This document shows positions 863 to 43,085 of a stretch of DNA of 64,000 bases, in pieces. The DNA comes from Bacillota bacterium (lineage in GTDB: Bacteria > Bacillota > Sulfobacillia > JAJZIM01): contig JAJZIM010000005.1 in the NCBI GenBank assembly GCA_021810565.1, forward strand, positions 1 to 64,000, given 5' to 3'. The notes beneath the pieces were generated by a model. That model searched no databases. It had not been told where the DNA came from and worked only from the letters and a program-made list of their open reading frames with translations. Made by a program: the position numbers and the translations under genes. The stretch's first letter is position 1, and the number at the start of each line of letters is the position of its first letter.

Positions 863-890
863 AAAAAAAGGCCTCCCGCGCGGGAGGCCT
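863..890 (-). terminator. Rho-independent terminator after the peptide cassette
   Basis: On the minus strand a perfect hairpin of AGGCCTCCCG and its complement (869-890) is followed by seven T residues (863-869). It lies 18 nt beyond the stop of the 20-aa peptide gene and would end the radical-SAM transcript. Confidence 0.85.
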
Positions 891-907
891 AAGGGGCCGG
901 TCCTCCT

Positions 908-970
908 TCAGCAGGAGGACTTGCACTTGCAGGTGCTGGAGGAAGCCTTGGCGACCTTGACGATCTTCAC
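908..970 (-). CDS. 20-residue Cys-rich peptide, candidate RiPP precursor
   Basis: This short gene starts at GTG 970 behind GGAGGTGAG, a strong ribosome site, 39 nt after the radical SAM gene, and stops just before a terminator. The product has a basic N-terminus (MKIVKVAKA) and the C-terminal sequence SSSTCKCKSSC, with three cysteines in a C-x-C-x4-C pattern. A tiny Cys/Ser/Thr-rich peptide directly behind a SPASM-type radical SAM protein is the standard layout of peptide-modification (RiPP) loci, so I infer it is the substrate. The peptide is too short for homology to prove this. It could instead be an unmodified metal-binding peptide. Confidence 0.6.
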   Translation of the reverse strand: MKIVKVAKASSSTCKCKSSC

Positions 971-1009
971 CGCTTTCTCACCTCCACGCGCGGATTTGGA
1001 CCAGGCCGG

Positions 1010-2170
1010 TCAGGCCGGCCGGAGTCCCGACGACCAGGGGTCCCAGCCGCAGCGGGCGCAGGCCACGAGATCCGGCCCCCGGCCATCCCCCGCCGCCTCG
1101 GCCCGGAAGCGGCAGCCGCCCCGGCACTCGGCCAGGTGCGGGCAGCCGCAGGACAGATCGGAAAGGTGCATTCGGGGCAGCGCCTCCCACGCGCGACGCA
1201 GGTCGCCCCCCCAGGGCACCCCGCGGCCGCGGTAGAAGCCGCACTTGCAAAGCTCCCCCTCCGGGGTGACGGCCCCCAGGTGGGTGCCGCACACCCCGTC
1301 GCCGCCGGAGTCGTGCAGGCCGCCCTCGCGGCTGTAGGCCAAAAGGGGGGCCAGCTCCTGCGGGGAGAGGAGGAGAGCCTCCTTCCGGGCGCGGCCGGCC
1401 GCGGCGGGGGCGTCCACGTTCCATTCCGCCACCCCCAGATGGTCCAGGAGCCGGGCCAGTTCCGGGAAGTCGGTTCGGTTGCCCCGGTGGGCCATGGTGG
1501 CCACGGACACGGTGATGCCCGCGGCGCCCAGATGCTCCAGGGCGGCCACGGCGGCTCGAAAGGAGCCAGTGCCGCGCAGGGCGTCATGGGAGGGCTCCAG
1601 ACCGTCCAGGCTAACCTGCACCTCCTGCACCGCCAGGTCCCGCGCCGCACCGGGGTCGATCAAGACGCCGTTGGTGAGCAGCACGCTGCGGAAGGACCAG
1701 CGGGGCAAAAGCTCGTTTAGCCGCCAGAAGTCCGGGTGAAGCAGCGGCTCGCCGCCCGAGAGCAAAAGGCGCAGGCCCCCCAGGCGGTCGAATTGGTCCA
1801 ACAGGCGCACGGCCTCCTCGAAGGGCAGGTCCGCCCCGCGCGGCTCGCCCAGGTAGCAGTGGGCGCAGCGCAGGTTGCACCGGTCGGTGAGCAGAAGTTC
1901 CAGGTACCGCAGGGATGGCCGGGGAGCCGGCTCGGGCAGGGAACGGGGCGAGGCCGGCCCCTCCTCCAATAGCCCCTCCGCGCGGCAAAACTCCCAAAAC
2001 TCCGGATCGGGGGAGGGTACCTCCTCGCCCCGCGCCAACCGGAGCAGGTAGGCTGCGGCGGCGTCGTCCAGCTCATACAATTCGTCAGTCTCCCGGTGGT
2101 ACAGGTGCGGCCGCTCCAAGAGGCGCAGCGAGCAGCCTGGGGTCAGGCGCACCCTACTCAGCGACGGCAC
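1010..2170 (-). CDS. Radical SAM/SPASM peptide-modifying enzyme candidate
   Basis: The protein has 386 residues. The N-terminal 70 residues look like a PqqD-type recognition domain (Y-H-R-E-T-D-E-L-Y-E-L-D, then A-Y-L-L-R-L). The radical SAM cluster motif C-N-L-R-C-A-H-C is at Cys98, Cys102 and Cys105, and GGEP follows. The C-terminal SPASM region has the expected cysteine spacing: C-x13-C, C-x-C-x5-C-x3-C and a final C-x2-C. SPASM enzymes of this architecture install thioether or other links in short peptides. It starts at GTG 2170, overlapping the upstream small gene by 17 nt, and is followed by the 20-residue Cys peptide. Substrate and chemistry are inferred from context only. Confidence 0.85.
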   Translation of the reverse strand: MPSLSRVRLTPGCSLRLLERPHLYHRETDELYELDDAAAAYLLRLARGEEVPSPDPEFWEFCRAEGLLEEGPASPRSLPEPAPRPSLRYLELLLTDRCNLRCAHCYLGEPRGADLPFEEAVRLLDQFDRLGGLRLLLSGGEPLLHPDFWRLNELLPRWSFRSVLLTNGVLIDPGAARDLAVQEVQVSLDGLEPSHDALRGTGSFRAAVAALEHLGAAGITVSVATMAHRGNRTDFPELARLLDHLGVAEWNVDAPAAAGRARKEALLLSPQELAPLLAYSREGGLHDSGGDGVCGTHLGAVTPEGELCKCGFYRGRGVPWGGDLRRAWEALPRMHLSDLSCGCPHLAECRGGCRFRAEAAGDGRGPDLVACARCGWDPWSSGLRPA

Positions 2171-2384
2171 GGACCACGTCCTCCGGGGTGATGACGCCCT
2201 TCAAGAGCAGGTGCTTCAGGATCCGAAAGGCGCCGCACTCCAATTCCTCGTCTTCTCCCTCCTTGAAGAAGTCGCAGTCCCGGCAAAAAAGGTCCACCAA
2301 TCCCTCCTCCGAGGTGCAGTAGGCCAGATTGGCGGAGCAGAAGCGGTCGGCGTGGGCGCGGATGTGGGGGAAGCCGGTTGACAC
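2154..2384 (-). CDS. Small Cys-rich protein of the radical-SAM cassette
   Basis: The protein has 76 residues and starts at GTG 2384 behind AAGGAGGGG. It contains five cysteines (16, 23, 34, 37, 50), including F-C-R-D-C-D-F-F, and ends in an acidic/helical segment (ECGAFRILKHLLLKG). It is the first gene after the promoter at 2418-2446 and overlaps the radical SAM gene, so the two are probably translationally coupled. I do not recognise the family. A partner, chaperone or metal-binding role for the peptide pathway is possible, but nothing in the sequence settles it. Confidence 0.75.
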   Translation of the reverse strand: MSTGFPHIRAHADRFCSANLAYCTSEEGLVDLFCRDCDFFKEGEDEELECGAFRILKHLLLKGVITPEDVVRAVAE

Positions 2385-2417
2385 GGGGCACCCCTCCTTC
2401 TGCGTTGACGCTAACTA

Positions 2418-2446
2418 ATTTTACCATCAGATTGCCCTCCGGTCAA
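2418..2446 (-). promoter_or_regulatory. Sigma-A-type promoter for the peptide cassette
   Basis: On the minus strand TTGACC (2441-2446) and TAAAAT (2418-2423) are separated by 17 nt. The -35 box overlaps the last codons of merB, so the small-protein/radical SAM/peptide genes can be expressed apart from the mercury genes. Just downstream GTTAGCGTCAACGC shows partial dyad symmetry and could be an operator. Confidence 0.75.
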
Positions 2447-3060
2447 GCCTGGGCCGGCCCGAAAAGGGACCAAACGCTGCGGCCCCAGCGGGCGGCCTGC
2501 GACAAGGTCAGGTAGGCGGGCGCGTCAGCGGCGGGGTCGTCGGGCCCGACCGAGCCCACGAAGACGATGCCCTCTCAGGTGCCCCCGCACATGGTGCGGT
2601 GCGCGTGGGGCGGCAGGACGCGCACGAAGACTTCCCGGGAGGCCGCCTGGGGCGCTCCCCGGCGAAACTGCAGGCGCAAATCCTCGCCGCCGTCCGCCAA
2701 GCGGCTCTCCACCAGCGCGTCGGCTCCCAGGGCGGCCGGGATGGCCGCGGCGTCCAGGGCGCACCAGGTCCAAAGCCGCCTACCGCCCAGGGTCAGCCGG
2801 TGCGCCGCCGGCTCCACGGAAAGCCCGGCGGCGCCGGTGATCCTGGTCCCATCCCAGGTGAGCCAGCCGGCCTCGCCCAGGGCGGCTGCCGCCCGGGCGG
2901 TCTTGCCCGGCGTCCTGCGGGCGGCCGCCGCCACCTGCTCCAGGGAGACCGCCGCTCCCCGGGCCAGCAGCCGGAAGGCCGCCCCCAACACCCGCCGCTC
3001 CGTGGGCGGGTGGGCGGCGATCTCCTCGATCCATACGCGGCGCATCGTCTCCTCAGTCAT
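2443..3060 (-). CDS. merB: Alkylmercury lyase with in-frame TGA, candidate selenoprotein
   Basis: MerB cleaves the carbon-mercury bond of organomercurials, giving Hg(II) for MerA. The frame from ATG 3060 shows the family signature: L-S-V-E-P-A-A-H-R-L-T-L-G-G followed by L-W-T-W-C-A-L-D, giving Cys100 and Asp103 (Cys96/Asp99 in the E. coli enzyme). An in-frame TGA (2575-2577) is codon 162. The next residues E-G-I-V-F-V-G-S align with the segment after catalytic Cys159 of classical MerB. The distance from Cys100 to codon 162 (62) nearly equals 96 to 159 (63). Read through, the product has 205 residues, the usual MerB length; ending at TGA leaves 161. A SECIS-like hairpin follows. Alternatives are a nonsense pseudogene, or Cys158 serving as nucleophile. 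Confidence 0.7.
2542..2557 (-). promoter_or_regulatory. SECIS-like hairpin after the merB TGA
   Basis: In the mRNA, GGGCUC (2557-2552) pairs with GGGCCC (2547-2542) through six pairs including one G-U, closing a GGUC tetraloop whose first base is 24 nt after the UGA. Bacterial selenocysteine insertion elements are hairpins at about this distance with a G in the first loop bases; the E. coli fdhF element also presents GGUC in its loop. A lower stem GUC/GAC (2565-2563 with 2538-2536) can extend it. GC-rich DNA makes such hairpins by chance, so this is supportive only. Confidence 0.5.
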
Positions 3061-3113: not shown

Positions 3114-3287
3114 TCAGCCGAAGGGCAGCTCGATGCCCACGGCGGCGGCACACTCGGAGCACAGCACACCCTCCGGCAGCTCGGCCCGGTGGCAGTGATC
3201 GCAGATCAGCCGGCCGCACCGGGTGCAAGAGGTTCCCGTGCCGTCCGGCACGGGCAATCCGCAACCTTCCACTTCGCAGTAGCGCAT
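3114..3287 (-). CDS. Zinc-ribbon protein in the mercury cluster
   Basis: The protein has 57 residues, starting at ATG 3287 behind AGGAGGAATT. Nearly the whole chain is a treble-clef-like cysteine array: C-E-V-E-G-C near the N-terminus, then C-T-R-C-G, C-D-H-C-H and C-S-E-C, typical of a small zinc-binding (B-box/ribbon) protein. It sits between ccdA and merB on the same strand with short gaps, so it is probably co-transcribed with the mercury genes. The thiol-rich sequence could bind Hg(II) or Zn(II). No specific function can be assigned. Confidence 0.75.
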   Translation of the reverse strand: MRYCEVEGCGLPVPDGTGTSCTRCGRLICDHCHRAELPEGVLCSECAAAVGIELPFG

Positions 3288-3306: not shown

Positions 3307-4002
3307 TCAGGCGCCGTGCAGGGCGCTCCACCAATACCAGATGAGGTAGACACCGGAGAAGGCCACCAACCCGCCGCCCGAGCGCTGCACCAGGCGGATG
3401 CCGCCGCGCAGCAGCCGCTGGAGGGCGCCCAGGGAGAAGGCCGTGGCCACGGCGATGGCGGTCACCACCAGGCCCATGCCCACCGACCAGGCCGCGAAGG
3501 CGCCGATGGCGCCCAGCAGGCTGCGGCTGAGCGCCGCCTGGGCCACCAGCACCATAAACAGCGGCAGGGTGCAGCTCAGGGCCCCCAGGCCGTAGGCCGC
3601 GCCGTACAGCACCAGGCTGGCCGGACCCGGGGTGCCGGCCCGCTCCAGCAGGCTGTTGCGGGCGGCGTCCACCGGCAGTCCCCAGCGCCACCGGCCCAGG
3701 ACCATCAGCACCCCCGCCAGCACCAGGAGGACACCCAGGACGAGGAGCACGTAGGGCAGGACCGGCAGGAGCACCCGGTCCACCTGGGCCAGTACCAGGC
3801 CGAGGAGGACGAAGACCGCCAGGAATCCGGTGGTCATGCCGCCGCCCGCCCCCAGGCCGCGGCGCAGCCGGACTGCGGCCGAGGCCGCGTCGACCCGGCC
3901 GAAGAGCATGCCCAGGTAGCCCGGCAGCAGGATCACCCCGCAGGGGCTGAAGGCCGCGCCCGCTCCGGCGGCGAAGGCCAGGGACCAAAGCCCCACGCTC
4001 AT
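3307..4002 (-). CDS. ccdA: CcdA-type thiol-disulfide membrane transporter
   Basis: The protein has 231 residues and six or so hydrophobic helices. It carries the two redox cysteines of the CcdA/DsbD membrane domain: F-S-P-C-G-V (Cys21) in the first helix and A-L-S-C-T-L-P (Cys144) in the fourth. CcdA passes electrons from cytoplasmic thioredoxin across the membrane to outer thiol-disulfide proteins. Its ATG at 4002 overlaps the stop of the redox lipoprotein in an ATGA, so the two are coupled. That arrangement suggests CcdA reduces that lipoprotein rather than serving cytochrome c maturation, since no other ccm/res gene is near. Confidence 0.9.
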   Translation of the reverse strand: MSVGLWSLAFAAGAGAAFSPCGVILLPGYLGMLFGRVDAASAAVRLRRGLGAGGGMTTGFLAVFVLLGLVLAQVDRVLLPVLPYVLLVLGVLLVLAGVLMVLGRWRWGLPVDAARNSLLERAGTPGPASLVLYGAAYGLGALSCTLPLFMVLVAQAALSRSLLGAIGAFAAWSVGMGLVVTAIAVATAFSLGALQRLLRGGIRLVQRSGGGLVAFSGVYLIWYWWSALHGA

Positions 4003-4520
4003 CGGTGCACCGCCGCGGCAAGGGCCGCCGCGAGCACCTGGGGAGTCGGGGATACCCACCGGCCCAGGATCCGCCCGTCGGCCCCCACCAGGATGGCGGT
4101 GTCCAGGGAGGTCACCCCGTAGGCGGTGACCAGTCCGGCCGGGGCGAAGGCGTGGGGCCAGGGGCCGCCGTAGCGCTTTTGCACCTGGGCCAGGGCGGCG
4201 GGGGTGTCCTGGCCGGGGGTGACATCCAGGCTGACGAAGCGTACTTGATGCGTGAACCGCGGGTACAAGGCGGCCAGGTGCTCCTCTCCGGCCCAGCAGC
4301 TGGAGCACCAGGCGGCCATGAAGTACAGCAGGGTCGGCTCATGATGGGACAAGGCGAGCTTTTTCCCGGCCAGGTCCGTCAGCTGGAAGGCGGCCGCCCG
4401 GTCGCCCACGGCGTAGCCGGGAACGGCCGCGGCCGGGGAGACGGTCGCCGGGGCGGTGCCGCAGCCCGCAGCGGCGCTCAGGAACCACAGGGCGGCGGCC
4501 AGGAATACCACCTTACGCAC
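3999..4520 (-). CDS. TlpA/ResA-like redox lipoprotein
   Basis: The protein has 173 residues. A signal peptide (residues 1-19) ends in a lipobox, A-A-A-G-C, so Cys20 is probably lipidated and the protein anchored outside the membrane. The rest is a thioredoxin-fold redoxin (AhpC/TSA or TlpA type) with the active-site motif A-W-C-S-S-C-W at Cys72 and Cys75. It overlaps the upstream merF-like gene by 8 nt and the downstream ccdA by 4 nt. The context suggests a thiol relay, CcdA to lipoprotein, used in mercury handling or in keeping surface thiols reduced. Assignment to the family is firm; the mercury role is inferred. Confidence 0.87.
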   Translation of the reverse strand: MRKVVFLAAALWFLSAAAGCGTAPATVSPAAAVPGYAVGDRAAAFQLTDLAGKKLALSHHEPTLLYFMAAWCSSCWAGEEHLAALYPRFTHQVRFVSLDVTPGQDTPAALAQVQKRYGGPWPHAFAPAGLVTAYGVTSLDTAILVGADGRILGRWVSPTPQVLAAALAAAVHR

Positions 4521-4743
4521 GGGGGCCTTCCTCCCCGGGGACGTCGGCCGGACGCCGCCGCGGCTTCCCCCAGGCGGCCAGGAGGAAAAGGCCGGCCGCC
4601 AGGGCCGCCAGGATCCAATGCGGGACCGGGGCGGCCAGGGTCAGCCCCACTCCGCCCAGGCCGACCCAGGCCAGCAGGGCCGGACCGGCGCAGCAGGCTC
4701 CGCCCGTGAGCAGGGCGGGCAAGAACAGCCATCCGAAACGCAA
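4513..4743 (-). CDS. MerF/MerT-like mercuric ion membrane protein
   Basis: The protein has 76 residues with two hydrophobic helices. A vicinal cysteine pair lies in the first helix (L-T-G-G-A-C-C-A-G-P, Cys17-Cys18), the hallmark of the small Hg(II) uptake proteins MerF and MerT. I chose TTG 4743 because GGGAGG lies 8 nt upstream; a longer frame to 4905 is Pro/Gly-rich and not protein-like. The second cysteine pair of classical MerF/MerT is missing. It would hand Hg(II) from outside to MerA, encoded upstream. The next gene overlaps its 3' end. Confidence 0.75.
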   Translation of the reverse strand: MRFGWLFLPALLTGGACCAGPALLAWVGLGGVGLTLAAPVPHWILAALAAGLFLLAAWGKPRRRPADVPGEEGPRA

Positions 4744-4798
4744 CGCAGCCACCTCCCACGTTTTTTTCCGGGTCCCCGGGTTCCCCGACAGGGCTTTT

Positions 4799-5056: not shown

Positions 5057-6697
5057 CTATCCCGCGCAGCAGGAGAGCAGATGCACGTCCCGGCCGAAGG
5101 TCTGGGCGGCCAGGCGCAGGCCCTCGGCCATGGTCAGGTAGGGGGCCAGCGCGTCCGACAGGTCGGCCACGGTGAGGCGGTAGCGCACGGCCAGGGAGGC
5201 GGCGTAGATCACCTCGCCGGCGGCGTCGGCCACCAGGTGCGCGCCCAGCAGCCGGTCGTCCTCGGCGTCGGCCACCAGCTTCACCAGGCCGCGGGTGTCC
5301 CGGTTGACCAGGGCGCGGGGCACCGCGTCCAGGGGTAGGATGGAGACCTTGACCTGATGGCCCGCCGCGCGGGCCTGGGCCTCGGTCAGGCCCACCGTGG
5401 CCACCGAGGGGTCGGTGAAGATCACCGAGGGCACCGTGGCCAGGTCCACCCGCCGGTCGGCGCCTAGGGCGTTCTGGGCGGCCAGGCCCCCCTGGTAGGC
5501 GGCCACGTACACGAATTGGGGACCGAAGGTGACGTCCCCGGCGGCGAAGACCCGGGGGTTGGCGGTGGCGAGATGCTCATCCACCGGGATCTCCCCCCGC
5601 GAACCGGGGGTGATGCCGGCCCGGGCAAGCGCCAACTCCTCGGTGTTGGGCTGCCGGCCGGTGGCCACCAGCAGCTCCTCGGCTTCCACGACGCGCTCCT
5701 TTCCCTGGTGGGTCACCCGCACCCGGCGCGTCTTACCGTCCGTCTCCACCCCCAGGTAGCGCACCCCGGCCAAAACGTCGATCCCCTCGTCGGCCAGGAA
5801 ACCCTCCACCGCGGTGCCGATCTCCGGCTCGTACTCCTTCAGGAGGTGGGGGTGCCGCTGCATCATGGTCACCCGGCTGCCCAGGCGGGCGAAGAGCTGC
5901 CCCAGCTCCAGGGCGATGTATCCCGAGCCGATCACCGCCAGGGAGGCGGGCACCCGGCCCAGGGAGAGGGCGGTGGTGCTGGTGAGGTAGGCGGCCTCGG
6001 CCAGACCGGGGATGGCCGGGACGGCCGGGCGGGCGCCGGTGGCCAGCAGGTAGGCGCGGGCGGTCAGGGGTTGGCCGTCCACCTCCAGGGTGGCCGCGTC
6101 CCGGAAGGAGGCCGTGCCCCGGAGCACCTCCCAGCCGTAGGCCTCCACGATGTCCTCGTACTTCTCCTTGCGCAGCCGGGCCACCAGCTCGTCCTTTTGC
6201 GCCCACAGGGCCGGGGCGTCCACGGGACCCGCCGTGGTGGCGATCCCGGCGAAGGGATGGTGCCCTGCCGCATGGCGCGCCGCCGCCGCCCGCAGGAGCG
6301 CCTTGGAGGGGATGCAGCCGACGTTGACGCAGGTGCCCCCCAAGGTGCCCCGCTCCACCATCACCACCCGCGCCCCCTGGTCCCGGGCGCGGATGGCCGC
6401 GGCGAAGGCGGCGGAGCCGGAGCCCACGATGGCCAGGTCGTACTCGCCGGCCGCCGCGGCGCGGCGCGGCGGCGTTCCCGGGGCCTCCAGCCCCACGGGG
6501 CGGTAGCCCACGGCGCGGACCGCCGGCGCAAGACCGGCGCTGTCCACTCCCTCGGGCAGGAAGAAGCGCGCCTCGCCGCGGCGAAAGTCGGCGCGCACGC
6601 CCTGGGCGCCCGCGCGCTCCAAGGCCTCGGTCACGTGCAGCTCGCAGTCGGTGCAGGTCATTCCCTGGATGGACATGCGCCATTGGTCTTCGGCCAT
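5057..6697 (-). CDS. merA: Mercuric reductase MerA
   Basis: The protein has 546 residues and reduces Hg(II) to volatile Hg(0) with NADPH and FAD. An N-terminal heavy-metal-associated domain carries M-T-C-T-D-C. The FAD site G-S-G-S-A-A is near residue 92, the redox disulfide T-C-V-N-V-G-C-I-P-S-K near 123-128, the NAD(P)H site G-S-G-Y-I-A in the middle, and the diagnostic C-terminal vicinal pair L-L-S-C-C-A-G at the end. ATG 6697 is preferred to GTG 6706 because the AGAGGGA ribosome site fits only the former. It heads the minus-strand mercury genes. No merR or typical MerR operator is visible nearby. Confidence 0.96.
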   Translation of the reverse strand: MAEDQWRMSIQGMTCTDCELHVTEALERAGAQGVRADFRRGEARFFLPEGVDSAGLAPAVRAVGYRPVGLEAPGTPPRRAAAAGEYDLAIVGSGSAAFAAAIRARDQGARVVMVERGTLGGTCVNVGCIPSKALLRAAAARHAAGHHPFAGIATTAGPVDAPALWAQKDELVARLRKEKYEDIVEAYGWEVLRGTASFRDAATLEVDGQPLTARAYLLATGARPAVPAIPGLAEAAYLTSTTALSLGRVPASLAVIGSGYIALELGQLFARLGSRVTMMQRHPHLLKEYEPEIGTAVEGFLADEGIDVLAGVRYLGVETDGKTRRVRVTHQGKERVVEAEELLVATGRQPNTEELALARAGITPGSRGEIPVDEHLATANPRVFAAGDVTFGPQFVYVAAYQGGLAAQNALGADRRVDLATVPSVIFTDPSVATVGLTEAQARAAGHQVKVSILPLDAVPRALVNRDTRGLVKLVADAEDDRLLGAHLVADAAGEVIYAASLAVRYRLTVADLSDALAPYLTMAEGLRLAAQTFGRDVHLLSCCAG

Positions 6698-6789
6698 GAT
6701 CGTCACTCCCTCTTTCCAAGGTGGGTCTGCCGGCAGGATGCCCCGGCGCGGATGCCGAAGATACCGGCGGAGGTGGATGCGTCTTGCGG

Positions 6790-41785: not shown

Positions 41786-42726
41786 CCCTCCCGGCGCAGT
41801 AACGGCTTTCCGGTGGTGGAGAACAGGAACCGCAGGTAGGCCAGGCCGGTCGCCTGGTCGGGCGTGCCCGTGATCTGGGTCACGTAAACCACCATGGGGC
41901 TTCCGTGCACCAGGGTGCCGTTCTTCAGGCGCAGGGACTGGGTGCGATAGAGGGAGGCGTAGGCGGGGTTGCCCATGTCGATCCGCCCCGGCAGCCGAAT
42001 GTAGGGCAGATGGCGCTGGATCGCCTCGGGCAGGAAGGCCGAGGAGGCGTCCAACTGGCCGGACTGCAGGTGGGACAGGATGGACTCCTCGGCGAAGATC
42101 TGCCGCGGATTGTTCACCCCGCCCAGGACCCTGGTCGCCGTGCCGGGCGCCAGGTGCAGGTAGCCCCGGGCCAGGTGCATCATGAAGATGAAGGCCTGTC
42201 CTTGGGGATCCGTCTGCGGGTTGGTGCGGCCCAGATGAAAGCCGGGCTGCTCCATTATCCGGAACAGGTCCGCCAAGGGCTTCTTGCCGTGGGCGATGGC
42301 TTGAAACTCCGGGGCCCAGCGGCTGCGGGGGGAGTAGGCGATCACCAGGGGATTGGCGGCCAGGGCCACGCTCCAGCGGGTGAACTTGGGCTCCAACAGT
42401 TTGATGGGGCCGGTGCCCATGCTCTCGAAGACGTTGGGGTGGATCTCTCCGGTGGCGATGAGGTGGGCCACCCCGAAGGCGCCGCCGCCGCGACCGCGGT
42501 AGTGGTTGCCGGTGGCGTGCTCGAAGGCGGGCCCCAGGAATTGATCGTTCACCACCTGCAGGGCGCCGGCATAGGCCACGTCGGCCGTGCCGGCGGGCTT
42601 GGCGACGGGGCCGGCACCGCAGCCGGCCAAGAGGAGAGCGGCGGCCAGGAGGGCCGGGCCGATCCGGCCGAGGGGCAGGACCGTCGAAGATGGTCTGGGG
42701 ACGGGGGAAGGAAAACTGTTGAACAT
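41704..42726 (-). CDS. Molybdate/tungstate-type ABC substrate-binding lipoprotein
   Basis: The protein has 340 residues from ATG 42726. The signal peptide ends in the lipobox L-L-L-A-G-C-G, so it is membrane-anchored outside. The mature part is like the WtpA/ModA group: D-V-A-Y-A-G-A-L-Q-V-V-N-D, G-G-A-F-G-V-A-H-L-I-A-T-G, N-P-L-V-I-A-Y and Q-T-D-P-Q-G-Q-A-F. These bind molybdate or tungstate for ABC import. No permease or ATPase gene is next to it. A leader of about 390 nt with two Moco/Tuco-like structures precedes it, consistent with cofactor control. Confidence 0.8.
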   Translation of the reverse strand: MFNSFPSPVPRPSSTVLPLGRIGPALLAAALLLAGCGAGPVAKPAGTADVAYAGALQVVNDQFLGPAFEHATGNHYRGRGGGAFGVAHLIATGEIHPNVFESMGTGPIKLLEPKFTRWSVALAANPLVIAYSPRSRWAPEFQAIAHGKKPLADLFRIMEQPGFHLGRTNPQTDPQGQAFIFMMHLARGYLHLAPGTATRVLGGVNNPRQIFAEESILSHLQSGQLDASSAFLPEAIQRHLPYIRLPGRIDMGNPAYASLYRTQSLRLKNGTLVHGSPMVVYVTQITGTPDQATGLAYLRFLFSTTGKPLLRREGYLLVPPAIQGDQTAVPPSLRHLSAKG

Positions 42727-42734
42727 AAGGAATC

Positions 42735-42880
42735 CACGCTCCTTTCCTAGCACGGGAGGCCCGCCGGTTTCCCGGCGAACCCGAGCCGCCGAGCGGCTGG
42801 CCGTCGCTCCACGGGGGATGAGCCCGACAGGGGCGGCGGCTTCGGAGGCGCATGTGATGCGGGTCGAGGGGCTTACGCGA
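42735..42880 (-). promoter_or_regulatory. Moco/Tuco-riboswitch-like structure, gene-proximal copy
   Basis: Read on the minus strand, this leader segment contains CCAGCCGCTCGGCGGCTCGG, then GCCGGGAAACCGGC, then CCTCCCGTG and finally AGGAAAGGAG, the likely ribosome site of the lipoprotein gene. The arrangement, and its place before a molybdate/tungstate-type binding protein, recall the molybdenum/tungsten cofactor riboswitch; I judged this from memory of the motif, not from a covariance search. A near-identical copy lies upstream at 42965-43085. Confidence 0.55.
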
Positions 42881-42892
42881 TCACCTGCCTTT

Positions 42893-42962
42893 CCTGCTCC
42901 GAACACGCCAAACGGCGTCCGTGGGAAAGGACGCCGTCACCGCCGCGGCTTAAGTCGCGGGC
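42893..42962 (-). terminator. Hairpins between the two riboswitch-like copies
   Basis: On the minus strand ACGGCGTCC/GGACGCCGT forms a 9-bp stem with a 7-nt loop, then TTTGGC. Just before it CCGCGACTTAAGCCGCGG forms a second hairpin. The first could be an intrinsic terminator controlled by the upstream copy, although the T-run is short. Confidence 0.45.
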
Positions 42963-42964
42963 AG

Positions 42965-43085
42965 GTTTTCTCCTTTCCGAACACGGGAGGCCCGCCGGTT
43001 TCCCGCCGGACCCCGAGCCGCCGAGCGGCTGGCCCTCGTCCCCTGGGTCGCTGCCTTTAGGGGCGGGGGCTCGGAGAAGCGCTAT
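42965..43085 (-). promoter_or_regulatory. Moco/Tuco-riboswitch-like structure, distal copy
   Basis: It is the second copy of the leader element: on the minus strand GGCCAGCCGCTCGGCGGCTC, GGCGGGAAACCGGCGGG, CCTCCCGTG and GGAAAGGAG recur with the same order and spacing as at 42735-42880. Variable loops differ while the stems are kept. After GGAAAGGAG no start codon follows, so this copy is not itself attached to a gene. Confidence 0.5.

Follow-up and report, generated by a model that had tools for sequence, protein, structure and literature searches.

The question raised by the merB-type gene of the window (by which we mean the whole 64,000-nucleotide stretch of DNA analysed here) is whether the TGA that interrupts its frame at codon 162 is read as selenocysteine (Sec), marks a gene that is being lost, or stands for some other amino acid. 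The first-pass annotation had described a frame of 205 residues with this TGA, followed by 43 more codons and a normal TGA stop, and translation reproduces it in full. The features of the gene are as follows.

2443..3060, minus strand: gene of merB type, coding for 205 residues (Sec at 162) and ending in a TGA at 2443-2445 (translation, PF03243 and fold match)
2761..2763, minus strand: codon of Cys100, equivalent to Cys96 of E. coli MerB (invariant in alignment A4)
2752..2754, minus strand: codon of Asp103, equivalent to Asp99 of E. coli MerB (invariant in alignment A4)
2575..2577, minus strand: in-frame UGA taken as selenocysteine 162, at the Cys159 position (all aligned relatives have U or Cys here)
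2542..2557, minus strand: SECIS-like hairpin with a 6 bp stem and the loop GGUC at 2548-2551, the loop lying 23 nt after the UGA

It may be noted that an open frame past the TGA is by itself uninformative, the probability of 43 stop-free codons at such a composition being 0.62. The GC content by codon position is 0.75/0.63/0.92 before the TGA and 0.72/0.60/0.91 after it, and since this pattern is unchanged, coding runs on past the TGA. The closing TGA (codon 206) was also considered as another Sec codon and rejected, as homologues terminate near there.

The source genome is a draft of 3.18 Mb in 115 contigs, 99% complete. It holds selA and selB, each above its cut-off, one tRNA-Sec that ARAGORN confirms, and two selD genes (L013 and L014), each interrupted in frame by a TGA at its SGUGCK motif, with a hairpin after it. 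The first-pass annotation had let the Sec reading depend on selA, selB and selC and had also asked for selD; all of them are present. The selA gene was found in every genome with a Sec-form merB and also in both genomes with a Cys form that were checked, so that loss of the machinery is no explanation for the Cys forms.

Relatives of the gene were sought in a sample of the phylum (398 genomes), by a profile search of the class and by scanning 84,980 species genomes. The phylum sample gave two other matches at about 30-35% identity with one internal TGA each, the class search one Cys form and four further loci, each with a single TGA, and the large scan a Rokubacterium with TGA together with many Cys forms (278 candidate MerB stretches, of which 80 were kept, with a few of the fetched ones falling off the site pattern). 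Seven other distinct Sec loci were thus available (L017, which is the same as L020, L018, L024, L099, L100, L101 and L103), at 24-36% identity, coming from the same GTDB class, from elsewhere in the phylum and from one Rokubacterium. In all eight distinct loci, the window included, the TGA falls in the identical column within a motif G/T-x-T-U, and the other seven proteins have an internal TGA at this shared column only; one of the seven lies in a single-contig genome (G116). All alignable Cys-containing MerB relatives have Cys in the column, never Trp, and the homologue alignment that the first-pass annotation had proposed for codon 162 therefore shows only UGA or Cys among the aligned relatives (C100, D103 and C/U162 are invariant in alignment A4). 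To judge from these sequences, the TGA at codon 162 is a genuine recoding signal and not damage, since seven other relatives have TGA at the same spot. A protein-level search of plasmids gave no match.

The predicted hairpin with a GGUC tetraloop 17 nt after the TGA was found (GGGCUC-GGUC-GGGCCC). In an ungapped alignment counted from the UGA, bases 21-26 pair with bases 31-36 at the same distance in all eight Sec loci, with at least 5 of the 6 base pairs and a G at the second tetraloop position in every one of them (loops GGUC, AGUU, AGUU, GGUC, AGGU, GGUC, AGGU and AGGC). Among 40 distinct Cys sites, none forms all 6 base pairs and 11 have the loop G. The covariation score of the hairpin is 0.56 against 0.25 for shuffled alignments (0 of 500 reach it) and 0.10-0.25 for slid partners, and 4 of the 6 pairs show changes on both sides, i.e. 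compensatory ones. A covariance model (R1), which the earlier annotation had suggested as a check, was made from the seven other Sec sequences with the window left out; it matches positions 2536-2577 and nothing else on either strand of the 64 kb (E 0.0019), a value to which conserved codons contribute as well as structure. Hairpin energy against synonymous-codon shuffles was not significant in the window (z = 0.34) or in most relatives, and Rfam at gathering score gave no RNA at the merB UGA site. What is conserved beyond chance across the eight distinct loci is therefore the position and pairing of the hairpin, not its energy.

With the machinery, the column that holds only UGA or Cys and the conserved SECIS-like hairpin all supporting the Sec proposal of the first-pass annotation, we consider it almost certain that UGA 162 of the window merB is decoded as Sec. 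One might suspect that merB is dying and that the TGA is a nonsense mutation or an error of sequencing, so that only a fragment of 161 residues is made; there is a single in-frame TGA, it lies late in the gene, and the draft assembly has 115 contigs. But the same codon is TGA in the seven distinct and divergent loci just described, one of them on a single contig, the coding bias persists and the hairpin is conserved past the TGA, and the operon with its MerA is intact. The earlier annotation had still allowed for a simple nonsense mutation; the shared TGA column excludes it for practical purposes, and we regard this explanation as very improbable. The probability that the UGA is read as Trp or some other residue than Sec, or reflects a wider change of code, is close to nil: the open frame fits such a reading and nothing more does, while the homologues have Cys and never Trp at the site and the full Sec machinery and SECIS-like hairpin are present. 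Moreover, of 31 long frames of the window (chosen heuristically) 21 end in TGA, more than in any other stop, which argues against a general reassignment of the code.

The Sec-decoded protein belongs to the MerB fold. It scores 56 bits with Pfam PF03243 (cut-off 27) and falls below both NCBIfam MerB cut-offs (74.5 bits where 200 are required, and 69.1 where 193 are), which are likewise unmet by the other Sec members scanned, as expected of a divergent branch. Its AlphaFold model has a mean pLDDT of 91, and on searching the PDB with this predicted structure we obtained mercury-bound MerB2 (5c17) at a TM of 0.81 and MerB crystal structures at 0.71-0.79, with nothing strong beyond; a sequence search of the PDB likewise gives strong matches to MerB2 and MerB only. 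MerB2 is the best match on both counts (E 2.5e-13 by sequence); its GGTC aligns with the GGTU of the window protein and the first catalytic Cys is common to both, but in MerB2 a Cys stands for Sec162 and a Ser for Asp103. Classical MerB (E. coli; 3f0o, 3f2f; NF033555, NF009710) has the same fold with matched Cys96, Asp99 and Cys159 positions, and its operons contain MerA as does that of the window, whereas the window protein has Sec for Cys159, lies on another branch and has no counterpart of Cys117, the third Cys of the classical enzyme. The first-pass annotation had placed Cys100 and Asp103 at the classical positions and codon 162 at the third catalytic one; both residues are present, the spacing of 62 (162-100) compares with 63 (159-96), and codon 162 aligns with Cys159 of E. 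coli MerB and the GGTC Cys of MerB2. Sec thus sits at the Cys159-type ligand and the Cys96-type residue stays Cys. What the computation shows is the presence of the Sec machinery, conservation of both the UGA column and the hairpin, and a MerB fold with a Cys/Asp/(Sec or Cys) triad; by homology, the protein would function as an organomercurial lyase that should break down toxic methylmercury.

On the tree, all Sec forms, MerB2 and three Thermomicrobia sequences are separated by a fully supported branch from 34 classical MerB rows. The Sec label needs four changes, of which at least two are forced by well supported branches. The sister of the window MerB is a Cys form from the same class (L102 in genome G439, which still has selA; 46% identical where the two overlap, support 93/74), and here the hairpin has 5 of the 6 pairs and has lost the loop G. 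It resembles a decaying SECIS, which suggests a recent Sec-to-Cys reversal. The Sec-MerB and this Cys sister would form a natural pair for the role of Sec in demethylation.

Upstream of merB on the same strand are the following genes.

5057..6706, minus strand: merA, mercury(II) reductase (TIGR02053 596.8 bits against a cut-off of 454.45), with an N-terminal heavy-metal domain GMTCTDC and a C-terminal Cys pair
4513..4773, minus strand: small membrane protein with a CC motif, weakly MerT-like (PF02411 16.1 bits, under the cut-off of 32.9)
3999..4520, minus strand: TlpA/ResA-like thioredoxin-fold protein with CSSC (PF00578, PF13905 and PF00085 over cut-off)
3307..4002, minus strand: CcdA-like membrane protein, named from its FSPC motif and with no Pfam or NCBIfam match
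3114..3287, minus strand: 57-residue Cys-rich zinc-ribbon-like protein (translation; weak match below cut-off)

Homologues of the TlpA-like gene adjoin merB in L105, L108, L109, L024 and L019, those of the CcdA-like gene in L105, L108, L109 and L019, and a MerA over the TIGR02053 cut-off does so in L105, L107 and L019. The neighbours in L017 and L018 are ABC transporter or metallochaperone genes, without merA.

A MerB homologue with Sec is not without precedent. The organometallic lyase SaoL (NF040728) of the SAO system is the one MerB-like selenoprotein in two reviews (PMC9312934, PMC13188914), and a control locus (L115) that passes its model at 186.6 bits (cut-off 140) has Sec in the same column as Sec162 (AGGCUNIMNFFC), so that Sec replacing Cys here has been seen before. 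This likeness, and the neighbours without merA in L017 and L018, could indicate a MerB-fold selenoprotein that naturally acts on some organometal(loid) other than an organomercurial, the proposal made for SaoL of the Sec-assisted organometallic system. We hold this to be unlikely, as the window gene reaches only 13.5 of the 140 bits required for SaoL, a MerA above cut-off lies in its operon and also beside merB in L105 and L107, and its Cys/Asp/Sec match the catalytic positions of MerB and MerB2. The motifs (GGTU against CU in SaoL) and the operons also differ, SaoL being found with SaoB, SaoC, SaoP, SaoT and others and the window merB with merA; a scan of the window neighbours (merA, TlpA-like, CcdA-like) gave no match to Sao families. 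By these scores and motifs, the window protein falls outside SaoL, and a Sec-MerB beside merA is one that the SaoL precedent, as covered by PMC9312934, PMC13188914 and the NCBIfam models, does not include.

It is instead highly probable that the gene product is an organomercurial lyase of MerB type, from the MerB2 side of the family, with UGA 162 translated as Sec by way of SelA, SelB, tRNA-Sec and SelD under the direction of the hairpin, the lyase chemistry being carried over by homology. Selenolates are ionised at lower pH than thiolates and bind Hg more tightly, and for this reason Sec should favour both the capture and the cleavage of the substrate. Pathways computed for classical MerB (PMC4525700) have Cys96, Asp99 and Cys159 as ligands of mercury in the product complex, from which thiols subsequently take it. 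In the window protein, SelA/SelB/tRNA-Sec/SelD would insert Sec at UGA 162, guided by the hairpin that starts 17 nt downstream, Cys100 and Sec162 would hold the mercury of the organomercurial, and Asp103 would give a proton to the carbon. Cleavage is probably faster, or affinity higher, with the selenolate. The Hg(II) would then be handed to the neighbouring MerA and reduced to Hg(0), a release that might require strong thiol partners, and the TlpA- and CcdA-like proteins may hold the active site reduced.

Selenium is a very strong mercury ligand, and to our knowledge no enzyme that attacks carbon-mercury bonds with selenium has been tested so far. A Sec-containing MerP has been described (PMC2398784). 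In this protein and in Sec metal-binding proteins (NF041115, NF045683), Sec replaces a mercury- or metal-binding Cys as in the window MerB, although these are small binders and the latter is of lyase type; no such small Sec protein was found in the window operon. Genes of MerP/CopZ-like lipoproteins in which the first metal-binding Cys is an in-frame TGA (GITUESC and GFTUASC) immediately precede the Sec-merB in L017 (979-1305, plus strand) and in L110 (5131-5532, plus strand; the same region as L018). These are candidates for a second selenoprotein of the same cluster. We lean slightly towards a 'seleno-mer' pathway present in several lineages, in which the mercury-binding Cys has become Sec in more than one Mer protein (MerB and the MerP-like GxTUxxC proteins of L017 and L110) because selenolate handles organomercury better, with Sec and Cys exchanged repeatedly. 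If true, this would be a selenium-dependent route of mercury detoxification apart from the SAO system. As gene callers stop at 161 residues, Sec-merB would be under-counted in surveys of mercury resistance.

Two other parts of the window may be mentioned. Behind a promoter-like site of its own (2446-2418) lies a separate cassette (869-2446, minus strand), and elsewhere there is a pair of riboswitch aptamers.

1010-2170, minus strand: radical SAM protein of the cassette, which also encodes a 76-residue Cys-containing protein
~912-974, minus strand: 20-residue peptide VKIVKVAKASSSTCKCKSSC of the cassette
890-869, minus strand: strong terminator after the 20-residue peptide
42725-43078, minus strand: two tandem Moco/tungsten riboswitch aptamers (RF01055; 58 and 76 bits)

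The TGA at 912-914, which ends the tiny Cys-rich peptide, was considered as a Sec codon and rejected, given the strong terminator directly after it. The cassette looks like a RiPP-type system, and its pair of 76-residue and radical SAM proteins recurs at 52% identity in L121 of G436; among the genomes of the class search, G436 alone belongs to the same order.
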